Below are positions 6,829-17,277 of a stretch of DNA of 39,087 bases, piece by piece. Source of the DNA: Collinsella sp. 4_8_47FAA (GTDB lineage: Bacteria > Actinomycetota > Coriobacteriia > Coriobacteriales > Coriobacteriaceae). Every line of letters starts with the position of its first letter. The first letter of the stretch is position 1. The notes under the pieces are model-generated. The model worked only from the letters and a program-made list of their open reading frames with translations, was not told the origin of the DNA and made no database searches. The stretch lies in contig NZ_KN214134.1 in assembly GCF_000763055.1 (NCBI RefSeq), positions 393,310 to 432,396 of the forward strand, in the 5' to 3' direction. The position numbers and the translations under genes were made by a program.

Positions 6829-6915
6829 GCGGGCGTGGCGGAATTGGCAGACGCGTACGGTTCAGGTCCGTATGGGGGCAACCCCATGAAGGTTCAAGTC
6901 CTTTCGCCCGCACCA
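6829..6915 (+). tRNA. tRNA-Leu (CAG)
   Basis: This class II tRNA of 87 nt has a perfect acceptor stem (GCGGGCG with CGCCCGC), an anticodon loop TTCAGGT with CAG, a long variable arm, T-loop TTCAAGT and an encoded CCA (6913-6915). Confidence 0.96.
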
Positions 6916-7146
6916 TTAAATTAAAGAGCTCCCAGCAATGGGAGCTTTTTTGTTATGGGCCCTTCACAGGGACTTGAACCTGTGAAGGAGCGAGCGTAAA
7001 GAAAACGCGGAGCGTTTTTAGCGAGCTGGCGAGGACGCCGGCAGGCGGCCGAAGCCGGTGCGGATCCGCGAAGCGGATACGCGGACGTCCTTTCGCCCGC
7101 ACCATTGAATGAAAGAACTCCCAGCAATGGGAGCTTTTTTGTTATG
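6898..7146 (+). repeat. tRNA-Leu 3'-linked repeat unit
   Basis: The tRNA 3' part and terminator (6898-6957) recur at 7087-7146, offset 189, with 3 mismatches. The core opens with a 10-bp hairpin, CCTTCACAGG against CCTGTGAAGG (6961-6988), whose centre GGGACTTGAACC inverts the tRNA-Leu T-arm. The rest of the core (AAAACGC/GCGTTTT hairpin, CCGGC/GCCGG, ATCCGC/GCGGAT) is near-identical to that behind the tRNA-Arg genes at 11.8-13.0 kb. GGAC (6970-6973) can pair with GTCC (7087-7090) to close it. Confidence 0.9.
6927..6951 (+). terminator. Intrinsic terminator of tRNA-Leu
   Basis: AGCTCCCA and TGGGAGCT form an 8-bp stem with a GCAA loop, then six T. A second copy at 7116-7140 has one stem mismatch. 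Confidence 0.92.
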
Positions 7147-11817: not shown

Positions 11818-11894
11818 GCGGCGTTACCTCAGCTGGATAGAGGGTCTGACTACGAATCAGAACGTCATAGGTTCGAATCCTATACGCCGCACCA
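11818..11894 (+). tRNA. tRNA-Arg (ACG), copy A
   Basis: The acceptor stem GCGGCGT/ACGCCGC is perfect, the anticodon loop is CTACGAA (ACG), the T-loop is TTCGAAT, and CCA is encoded. The ACG anticodon implies A34-to-inosine editing to read CGU, CGC and CGA. Two identical genes follow at 12250 and 12675. Confidence 0.96.
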
Positions 11895-12170
11895 ATTGAA
11901 ATTGAAAGCCTCCGGCAACGGGGGCTTTTCTTTTACGTCGGCACTGCCTGGATTCGAACCTCGGTCGAGGCGCGGGCGTAAAGAAAACGCGGAGCGTTTT
12001 TAGCCCGCGGGCGAGCGCGCCGGCAGGCGGGCGAAGCCGGTGCGGATCCGCGAAGCGGATGCGCGGAATTCTATACGCCGCTCCAATCGAAATTGAAAGC
12101 CTCCGGCAACGGGGGCTTTTATTTTATGGCGGTATCCCATGGATCCGAATCTCGGTCGAGGCGCGGGCGT
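11875..12170 (+). repeat. tRNA-Arg A 3'-linked repeat, one full and one partial unit
   Basis: The stretch 11875-11979 (tRNA 3' end, terminator, inverted T-arm and core start) recurs with scattered mismatches at 12066-12170, offset 191. One unit is complete and a second breaks off after GCGGGCGT. In the second copy CCGCACC has become CCGCTCC, so it is decaying. The core carries the same AAAACGC/GCGTTTT, CCGGC/GCCGG and ATCCGC/GCGGAT hairpins as the Leu unit. Confidence 0.9.
11905..11934 (+). terminator. Intrinsic terminator of tRNA-Arg A
   Basis: AAAGCCTCCG and CGGGGGCTTT form a stem with a GCAA loop, followed by TCTTTT. Confidence 0.88.
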
Positions 12171-12208
12171 CTCAATCATCACTTCGTAAAATTTTTCCAA
12201 ATTGTCGC

Positions 12209-12237
12209 TTGACCCATCGAGGGGTCACGTGCATAAT
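12209..12237 (+). promoter_or_regulatory. Promoter of second tRNA-Arg
   Basis: TTGACC (12209-12214), a 17-nt spacer and CATAAT (12232-12237), with an AAATTTTTCCAAATT box just upstream. Confidence 0.75.
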
Positions 12238-12249
12238 AATCCGTGCGTT

Positions 12250-12326
12250 GCGGCGTTACCTCAGCTGGATAGAGGGTCTGACTACGAATCAGAACGTCAT
12301 AGGTTCGAATCCTATACGCCGCACCA
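12250..12326 (+). tRNA. tRNA-Arg (ACG), copy B
   Basis: Identical in sequence to copy A, including the encoded CCA. It has its own promoter and terminator, so the three Arg genes are separate transcription units. Confidence 0.96.
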
Positions 12327-12558
12327 ATTGAGTTTTAAGCCTCCGGAAACGGGGGCTTTTCCTTTACGGGGGCATTGCGGAGATTCGAACCTCGTTCGAG
12401 GCGCGAGCGTCAAGAAAACGCGGAGCGTTTTTAGCGAGCGGGCGAGTCCGCCGGCAGGCGGGCGAAGCCGGTGCGGATCCGCGCAGCGGATGCGCGGAAT
12501 CCTATACGCCGCACCAACTGAACTTTAAAGCCTCCGGTAACGGAGGCTTTTCTTATAT
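12307..12558 (+). repeat. tRNA-Arg B 3'-linked repeat unit
   Basis: GAATCCTATACGCCGCACCA starting at 12307 recurs from 12497 (offset 190), followed by a diverged copy of the terminator. The core between them matches units A and C closely. The third hairpin loop is GCA here, GAA in A and GCG in C, while the ATCCGC/GCGGAT stem is constant. Confidence 0.9.
12337..12365 (+). terminator. Intrinsic terminator of tRNA-Arg B
   Basis: AAGCCTCCG and CGGGGGCTT form a stem with a GAAA loop, followed by TTCCTTT. Confidence 0.85.
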
Positions 12559-12633
12559 CGCGATGCGTCGAAGATCGCATCAGGTGGTCAAAATGAGTAA
12601 AAATCAAATTTGATAACTTTTTTCGAAAATTGC

Positions 12634-12662
12634 TTGACCTTTATTCAGTCGATGTGCATAAT
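12634..12662 (+). promoter_or_regulatory. Promoter of third tRNA-Arg
   Basis: TTGACC (12634-12639), a 17-nt spacer and CATAAT (12657-12662). The box AACTTTTTTCGAAAATT from 12615 closely resembles the one before tRNA-Phe. Confidence 0.78.
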
Positions 12663-12674
12663 AATCAACAAGTC

Positions 12675-12751
12675 GCGGCGTTACCTCAGCTGGATAGAGG
12701 GTCTGACTACGAATCAGAACGTCATAGGTTCGAATCCTATACGCCGCACCA
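12675..12751 (+). tRNA. tRNA-Arg (ACG), copy C
   Basis: Identical to copies A and B, with encoded CCA. Confidence 0.96.
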
Positions 12752-13012
12752 TTTGAGATTAAAGCTCCCGGCGACGGGGGCTTTTCTTTTACGTAAACAC
12801 TGCGTGGATTCGAACCTCGGTCGAGGCGCGGGCGTAAAGAAAACGCGGAGCGTTTTTAGCCCGCGGGCGAGCACGCCGGCAGGCGGGCGAAGCCGGTGCG
12901 GATCCGCGCGGCGGATGCGCGGAATCCTATACGCCGCACCATTTGAGATTAAAGCTCCCGGCGACGGGGGCTTTTCTTTTACGTAAACACTGCATGGATT
13001 CGAACCTCGGTC
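12732..13012 (+). repeat. tRNA-Arg C 3'-linked repeat, one full and one partial unit
   Basis: The 91-bp block 12732-12822 recurs at 12922-13012 (offset 190) with a single mismatch at 12804/12994. It covers the tRNA 3' end, terminator, inverted T-arm and the start of the core. It is, after the Phe copy, the best-preserved duplication in the window, so it is young or kept uniform by conversion. The closing stem GGATTC (12806-12811) with GAATCC (12922-12927) and the hairpin AAAACGC/GCGTTTT (12840-12856) are intact. Confidence 0.92.
12761..12790 (+). terminator. Intrinsic terminator of tRNA-Arg C
   Basis: AAAGCTCCCG and CGGGGGCTTT pair around GCGA, followed by TCTTTT. The downstream copy at 12951-12980 is identical. 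Confidence 0.85.
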
Positions 13013-17010: not shown

Positions 17011-17101
17011 GGAGAGCTGACCGAGAGGCCGAAGGTGCTCGCCTGCTAAGCGAGTATGCCCCAAAAGGGCATCTGGGGTTCGAATCCCCAGCTCTCCGCC
17101 A
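17011..17101 (+). tRNA. tRNA-Ser (GCT)
   Basis: This 91-nt class II tRNA has a perfect acceptor stem (GGAGAGC with GCTCTCC), an anticodon loop CTGCTAA (GCT), a long variable arm, discriminator G and encoded CCA. Unlike the other tRNAs here, no second copy of its 3' end follows. After the terminator, CAGCTGGGGATTAGAGTCC (from 17157) faintly resembles an inverted T-arm. Confidence 0.95.
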
Positions 17102-17141: not shown

Positions 17142-17277
17142 ATTATCAAGAATGGCAGCTGGGGATTAGAGTCCGAAAGGGCGTGAACATTAGGCAAACA
17201 CGGGGCGCTTGAAAACGGGGAGACCCAGGCGTGCTCGTGCACCCCGGTGTGGGGTTCCGAGGGGATGGAGTAGAAAT

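Follow-up and report, generated by a model that had tools for sequence, protein, structure and literature searches.

We show that five of the six tRNA genes in a 39,087-nucleotide stretch of the genome of Collinsella sp. 4_8_47FAA (contig NZ_KN214134.1, positions 393,310 to 432,396; hereafter the window) are followed by a repeating module. Its parts are, in order, the 3' end of the tRNA from the T-loop onwards, CCA, often a terminator, a short antisense copy of the T-arm (anti-T) and a structured core. The unit is about 190 bases long, with a hairpin-rich core of about 105 nt, and a stem, P1, closes the core by pairing the anti-T with the T-loop end of the following copy of the 3' end. The remainder of the anti-T forms the 5' strand of a short hairpin, P2, with a GNNA loop in 68 of 111 parsed units, and hairpins P3, P4 and P5 follow, in many of which the loops are GNA or GNNA and GA pairs occur in tandem. 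Such modules vary in number by whole units and are now seen behind many tRNA genes of gut Collinsella and other bacteria, an arrangement known until now chiefly from the rtT repeat of E. coli. We put the probability at roughly 0.53 that they make up a widespread RtT-like class of tRNA-tail modules, for which we propose release as RNA and spread by template switching.

The tRNA genes called in the window by ARAGORN were those for Phe, Leu(CAG), Arg(ACG), in three copies, and Ser(GCT). A first-pass annotation of the window had reported direct repeats of the 3' end and terminator behind Phe, Leu and Arg with a core in between. These repeats were indeed present, 60-105 nt long and at offsets of 186 (Phe), 189 (Leu) and 191, 191 and 190 (Arg), and a hairpin core sits between both copies in each unit. 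The Leu and Arg cores, described there as near-identical, are of one type (A); the resemblance does not extend to Phe, whose core is of a second type (B). Absent from that description were the anti-T, a 12-nt reverse complement of the T-arm of its own tRNA that lies about 55 nt past each of the five tRNAs, the seam in the T-loop, the further units elsewhere in the genome and a remnant behind tRNA-Ser. All features lie on the + strand. tRNA-Phe(GAA) (569-643) is followed by an anti-T at 700-711, the reverse complement of 619-630 at 12 of 12 positions, by the type-B core (712-809) and by the second 3' end with terminator (810-876), 99% identical to 624-690. Behind tRNA-Leu(CAG) (6829-6915) lie an anti-T matching its own TTCAAGT loop (6970-6980), a type-A core (6981-7086) and the second 3' end with terminator (7087-7146, 95%). 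The three tRNA-Arg(ACG) genes (11818-11894, 12250-12326 and 12675-12751) carry anti-T sequences at 11950-11961, which is complementary to 11869-11880 at 12 of 12 positions, 12382-12392 and 12806-12817, and type-A cores at 11962-12065, 12393-12496 and 12818-12920. Their second 3' ends with terminators lie at 12066-12170 (88%, including the beginning of the next unit), 12497-12555 (end point set by eye) and 12921-13012 (including a second anti-T at 12996-13007). A decayed anti-T/P2 remnant was found at 17157-17185, 3' of tRNA-Ser(GCT) (17011-17101).

The borders of the module were determined in 157 units, including four from E. coli, behind tRNA-Tyr. Units were selected for at most three mismatches in the 13-nt anti-T and at most one in 10 nt of the 3' copy, and a false unit (L186, offset 101) was removed before counting. 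The second 3'-end copy begins inside the T-loop, agreement with the tRNA rising from 7-10% at T54/T55 through 52% at position 56 and 86-87% at 57-58 to 97-99% at 59-60, with the match from position 61 onwards being a selection criterion. Identity of the anti-T was 89-100% over 12 nt, about 50% over the next two nucleotides and 23-39% outside. At three positions on the border of T-loop and T-stem the anti-T was exact in 150 of the 157 units, with a mean mismatch of 0.045 as against 0.76 when tRNAs were shuffled (2000 shuffles, minimum 0.64). Units behind tRNAs with unusual T-loops matched their own loop over 7 nt in 62 of 66 cases; a 7-nt stretch including the T-stem fitted more loosely (mean 1.78 mismatches versus 2.93 shuffled). 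Since GGTTCGA is itself near-universal, the match to the own tRNA mostly amounts to P1 pairing with the local copy. It also arises partly by construction because of the way units were selected, and the shuffle test covers the three loop positions. These counts, like those of loops, mismatches, P3 pairs and tandem GA given below, are not phylogenetically independent.

Further units were present elsewhere in the same genome (G000; 2.28 Mb in 40 contigs), whose SerS protein shows 100% identity to its counterpart in Collinsella aerofaciens strain D40t1. The Rfam tRNA model detected 57 tRNAs in it. Our tail scripts added modules for Gly(CCC), Lys(CTT), Lys(TTT), Glu(TTC) and Leu(CAA), of which that of Leu(CAA) has a partial anti-T. 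A further module follows the gene for tmRNA (L003), whose identity was confirmed. There are two core types in the genome as a whole. A covariance model, R1, trained partly on sequences of this genome, gave at least 11 matches in it when up to 11 candidates were scored; run on 12 of its loci with no such limit, it gave 16 matches at E values up to 0.001, 10 of them at 84-131 bits and the others at 22-61 bits. They correspond to full or truncated units behind 14 genes, namely Arg (three), Leu(CAG), Gly(CCC) (two matches), tmRNA (two matches), Phe, Lys (two), Glu, Val, Leu(CAA), Gln and Gly(GCC). The units in the Gly(GCC), Val(TAC) and Gln(TTG) tails (L018, L028, L041) are solo and truncated, and are probably collapsed arrays. 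Within Collinsella, the Gly(GCC) unit is truncated here and full in genome G172; of the Ser tails, that of L058 has a full unit, that of L056 a solo one, and those of the window and L057 a decayed one.

Chance was assessed by masking tRNA genes and comparing 300 nt on either side, on the same strand, in loci that overlap, so that a few genes may count twice. In the loci of the own genome, an anti-T was found downstream of 15 of 57 genes and a full unit downstream of 10 of 57, as against 1 of 57 each upstream. In loci L056-L098 a full unit lay downstream of 17 of 63 genes and upstream of 4 of 63. The upstream matches in both sets are, we presume, units of neighbouring Arg genes. No unit was seen on either side of 10 genes in loci from outside Coriobacteriia (L099-L135, with the clostridial match L134 left out). 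The upstream control thus rules out a chance origin.

R1 matched 88 of 296 Coriobacteriia genomes, in 33 of 125 genera, at an E value of 0.001. Because its RNAalifold structure holds 15 pairs, R1 is mostly a sequence model and the class-wide counts, obtained by scoring up to 11 candidates per genome, are lower bounds. In 30 distant Coriobacteriia genomes, chosen among those with matches, 120 matches fell in 90 loci, six of them at places duplicated across overlapping loci. The other 114 were examined, and 111 sit 10-447 nt downstream of a tRNA or tmRNA gene on the same strand, so that within Coriobacteriia the core stays attached to tRNA 3' ends, as had been supposed from the window. The remaining three (L209, L226, L242) lie behind a broken tRNA or at a contig edge; in L209 and L226 the units persist though the 5' half of the tRNA (Phe-like and Arg-like, respectively) looks broken, as if the tail had outlived the tRNA. 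Matches scattered away from tRNA genes, the outcome that would have counted against the first-pass annotation, were thus not what was seen in this class. Hosts in Coriobacteriia were the tRNAs for Ala, Arg, Gln, Glu, Gly, Leu, Lys, Met, Phe, SeC, Ser, Thr, Trp and Val, to which Clostridia add Pro, and no unit was seen behind Asn, Asp, Cys, His or Ile tRNAs in the coriobacterial and clostridial sets examined. Outside Coriobacteriia, 6 of 36 genomes reached via other loci matched at an E value of 0.05, one being the genome of L093. In the clostridial class of G296, a Clostridia metagenome-assembled genome, 28 of 196 genomes matched at 0.01. Among the 28 clostridial loci (L267-L294), 16 showed a clear full unit behind a tRNA, three (L270, L278, L286) a partial unit behind a tRNA, one (L288) was flagged as ambiguous and two (L280, L290) were unclassified. 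Triple arrays were found in G184, G268 and G276, and the architecture of the module is common to three phyla. Repeats misassemble easily, and an assembly artefact was therefore considered; however, the units occur in many separate assemblies, including the single-contig genomes G142, G184 and G276 and E. coli chromosomes, which makes this explanation practically impossible.

The rtT repeat had rightly been named as the closest precedent. The order of parts is the same in the tyrT units of E. coli, and the RtT units of Klebsiella share the architecture. Both are tandem tRNA-tail units ending in a second tRNA 3' end to CCA, both have P1 between the antisense T-arm and the T-arm copy, both carry GNA-capped hairpins and a tandem-GA hairpin, and both vary in copy number by whole units. 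A tandem GA motif is described for RtT (PMC7657543), and a 'rtT RNA 175 bp VNTR' (variable-number tandem repeat) is mentioned for Salmonella (PMC2658671). The supposition that rtT belongs to one locus was not borne out: a Klebsiella chromosome has 17 matches to RF00391, the RtT model, in the tails of Tyr, Pro, Lys, Ser and Arg tRNAs, and 12 of the 17 exceed the cut-off. In Pasteurellaceae RtT adjoins Asn and Lys tRNA genes (PMC4986893). The new units differ from RtT in often containing a terminator, in having tRNAs of many isotypes as well as tmRNA as hosts, and in their presence in Coriobacteriia and Clostridia. Among the titles and abstracts returned by searches of open-licence literature, none describes such units outside RtT.

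Cores follow the genome more closely than the tRNA. We compared 114 units from 35 genomes and 27 genera. Median core identity within a genome, behind different tRNAs, was 0.724 (262 pairs), whereas across genera it was 0.626 behind the same tRNA (213 pairs) and 0.606 behind different tRNAs, the background (5629 pairs). Within a genus, between genomes, it was 0.812 for the same tRNA (29 pairs) and 0.717 for different tRNAs (286 pairs), so that some locus memory remains at this level. The nearest neighbour of 55 of the 114 cores lay in the same genome behind another tRNA; that of five lay behind the same tRNA in another genus. Composition alone is insufficient, as the within-genome median dropped to 0.55-0.63 when letters of the cores were shuffled (five genomes). 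Inheritance locus by locus is therefore rejected, and the within-genome identity indicates that, within lineages, cores pass from one tRNA gene to another whereas P1 remains that of the locus, in keeping with the suggestion, made from the window, that the core had moved or been copied between tRNA loci.

Whole-unit variation was evident in E. coli, where 4680 of 5426 genomes had an rtT unit match, at 1-9 places each (median 2). The number of tyrT units is zero in strain 98203, one in MEI008 and SMN152SH1, four in K-12 and five in 98192, strains with two and three being also among the matches listed, and what distinguishes empty from filled tyrT sites is exact modules that run from one CCA end to another. 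In one ST131 tyrT locus (L296), genes for a fatty acid desaturase and a sterol desaturase follow tRNA-Tyr in place of rtT units and narI.

Such precise presence or absence, together with the tandem arrays in G184, G268 and G276, could be explained by the first candidate of the first-pass annotation, a tiny non-autonomous element. A tyrosine or serine recombinase, supplied by a phage or island, would have inserted it into the T-loop, with the left 3' end brought by the element and the right one being the old chromosomal end. The T-loop is a typical crossover site of integrases, and the units share with tRNA-integrating islands and prophages a direct repeat of the tRNA 3' end with its junction in the T-loop. 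Unlike those, however, the units are about 190 bp long, too short to hold a gene, and have no integrase inside, they contain an inverted T-arm, and the duplication spans the local terminator. The left copy has the acceptor strand and also the terminator of its locus, specific to each tRNA, whereas an element moving between tRNAs would bring its own. A viral contig (L300 6700-7470, IMGVR_UViG_2921084881_000004) also speaks for this explanation: the end of an apparent serine-recombinase gene abuts CCCACCA, after which come a terminator, anti-T and type-B core. This looks like a prophage that entered at a tRNA-Lys gene carrying a unit. rtT matches were likewise found in 27 records of a plasmid collection, but of 15 listed, four are of chromosome size (4.8-5.4 Mb), and of three smaller ones inspected, two have the chromosomal purU-nar neighbourhood and one (28 kb) has no annotation there. 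In the plasmid-labelled records CP125156.1 (5.37 Mb), CP101972.1 and NZ_CP031350.1 the surroundings of tyrT, with purU (and nar), are those of the chromosome. A blastn search of plasmids with one unit, and of phages with another, gave no match, a phage collection contained one record with an rtT match (515 kb), and two exact-pattern scans of viral contigs returned zero and one contig. A phage or plasmid vehicle is thus not supported by the records inspected. No enzyme was identified in searches for Y1_Tnp and RVT_1, which did not cover integrases. On balance we regard insertion by a recombinase as rather unlikely. A reverse-transcriptase carrier is also unsupported, since RVT_1, to which the search for reverse transcriptases was limited, was not found in 11 of 12 unit-bearing genomes. 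The sole match among the 12 is an open frame of 474 aa in the genome of the window itself (G000:C1:263364-263945).

The strand that folds could be recognised from the stems. Single mismatches within otherwise paired stems were G.T in 12 cases versus A.C in one (binomial p 0.003, uncorrected for relatedness), G.A in 22 versus T.C in none, and G.G in eight versus C.C in none, with one each of A.A and T.T. Tandem-GA hairpins were found, by a strict test that scored under half of the units as positive, in 52 of 113 units versus 9.3 in shuffled sequences and one on the antisense strand, and in Clostridia in 9 of 26 versus 2.0. In P3, Watson-Crick pairing is kept through several pair types, for example in 36 of 37 units versus a shuffled mean of 12.9, counted in units with at least 8 of 12 pairs parsed (37 of 113 and 10 of 26), a choice that favours pairing. 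The mismatch bias, the strandedness of the tandem GA and the P3 covariation together indicate that the tRNA-sense strand is the folded one. P2 loops of the GNNA type have a purine at the third base in 62 of 68 cases and are thus GNRA-like, which favours RNA. The first-pass annotation had offered a tRNA-linked RNA as one of two candidates, and the folding evidence (mismatches, covariation, loops and tandem GA) favours that option. We lean towards RNA rather than single-stranded DNA (ssDNA) because rtT is annotated in E. coli as processed from the tyrT transcript and because RtT RNAs of Actinobacillus pleuropneumoniae gave Northern signals (PMC4986893).

These features also bear on a passive origin, in which gene conversion would keep old tandem duplications of tRNA 3' ends similar, and the repeats would neither have a function nor spread as an element does. 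Direct repeats readily expand and collapse, as the truncated Val, Gln and Gly(GCC) units and the range of places per E. coli genome attest, and the Y1_Tnp and RVT_1 searches gave no enzyme. Yet such an origin leaves unexplained the compensatory changes across lineages, the strand-specific mismatches, the fixed seam in the T-loop and the architecture shared by three phyla, and we hold it to be quite unlikely.

Several observations weigh against an RtT-like class of released RNAs. A terminator separates the tRNA from the core in all five units of the window, and a strict terminator test was positive in 79 of 124 units. Transcription of the core is not assured when a terminator lies ahead of it, and this is the chief objection to a strongly expressed RNA. 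Loops of P3-P5 were GNA triloops in 102 of 282 cases, GNRA in 29, GNYA in 14 and UNCG in none, and the GNA triloops and GNYA loops are no less suited to ssDNA than to RNA, the set being compatible with the known stable types of DNA hairpin loop. RNA folds of the five window units beat shuffled sequences by z values of -1.8 to -4.0; folds of four units with ssDNA parameters gave -7.3, -4.1, -5.0 and -5.3, a comparison that likewise does not speak for RNA. The empty tyrT sites in E. coli may be deletions, no insertion event having been caught in the strains compared. In Clostridia, the attachment to tRNA genes holds in part, six of the 28 loci (L268, L272, L273, L274, L284, L287) having orphan or near-orphan units without an intact tRNA upstream; those of L268 and L273 carry a tmRNA-like 3' end. 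RF00391, which gave 132.9-137.5 bits on the positive control E. coli tyrT, had no match in the window, in L058 15300-15700 (E up to 5) or in 14 loci (E up to 0.05), its gathering score not being reached by the new units. R1 in turn reached a best E value of 0.056 on RtT units of E. coli and Klebsiella, located on the units and not significant, and the Tyr, Pro and Ser units of Klebsiella are unlike the new ones in anti-T loop and P2 length. With no matches to RF00391, and R1 at 0.056 or worse, we call the units RtT-like, formal membership failing; what they share with RtT is the position 3' of a tRNA with a second 3' end, the closing stem P1 and the tandem-GA hairpin.

The very stable ssDNA fold, the common GNA triloops and the orphan clostridial copies would all suit an ssDNA hairpin element moved by a Y1/HUH transposase. 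Repetitive extragenic palindromic (REP) sequences and bacterial interspersed mosaic elements (BIMEs), with their REP-associated tyrosine transposases (RAYT), are likewise short non-coding hairpin repeats spread within a genome. They are not bound to tRNA genes and depend on a Y1 transposase. Overall, Y1_Tnp was commoner in unit-bearing genomes (60 of 88 versus 80 of 208 others, p 4e-6, uncorrected for kinship), a further point against spread without a dedicated enzyme. However, the enrichment vanished outside the own family (20 of 42 versus 77 of 202, p 0.30), and kinship may explain it. Y1_Tnp was not found in 28 of the 88 genomes, among them G155, G184, G186 and G217 with 13, 5, 20 and at least 11 R1 matches, so that such a carrier is not required and the units differ from REP/RAYT systems. 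The preference of P2 loops for GNRA, and closing stems that track the tRNA rather than a fixed transposase site, also argue against a Y1/HUH element, which we consider very improbable. rttR is named among REP-containing small RNAs in one report (PMC12306157).

For an RtT-like class of RNA modules we infer the following course. Read-through of the terminator would yield an RNA that is cut at CCA ends, as annotated for E. coli rtT; P1, the acceptor 3' strand and CCA would mimic a tRNA 3' end, leading to release and stabilisation by tRNA 3' processing, and P1 and P2 would hold the antisense T-arm away from the real tRNA. Cores may reach new tRNA genes by template switching during replication or recombination, with the near-universal T-arm (GGTTCGANNCC) as the seam, and the switch would also duplicate the local 3' end and terminator. 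P1 would subsequently be fitted to the new tRNA through copying or selection, and host enzymes would suffice for the spread. The RNA may be useful to the cell, or the module may be a well-tolerated passenger. A wider reading, which we put forward tentatively and think less probable than not, is that of a bacteria-wide class of elements on tRNA and tmRNA tails that fold as RNA and re-template their own ends to the local T-arm with no dedicated enzyme, RtT being the first known branch. If the coriobacterial, clostridial and enteric units are one class, a large tRNA-linked RNA family has been overlooked, perhaps because units are tuned to each tRNA and cores drift between lineages. The question raised is how a short element rewrites its closing stem to fit a new tRNA, for which E. 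coli strains with 0 to 5 tyrT units provide a ready natural experiment.

Directly 3' of the Phe unit, at 883-1087 of the window, lie REP-like direct and inverted repeats of about 52 nt, 77% alike. Repeats resembling these, as judged by eye, also follow the tmRNA unit of the same genome (L003 1740-1960).

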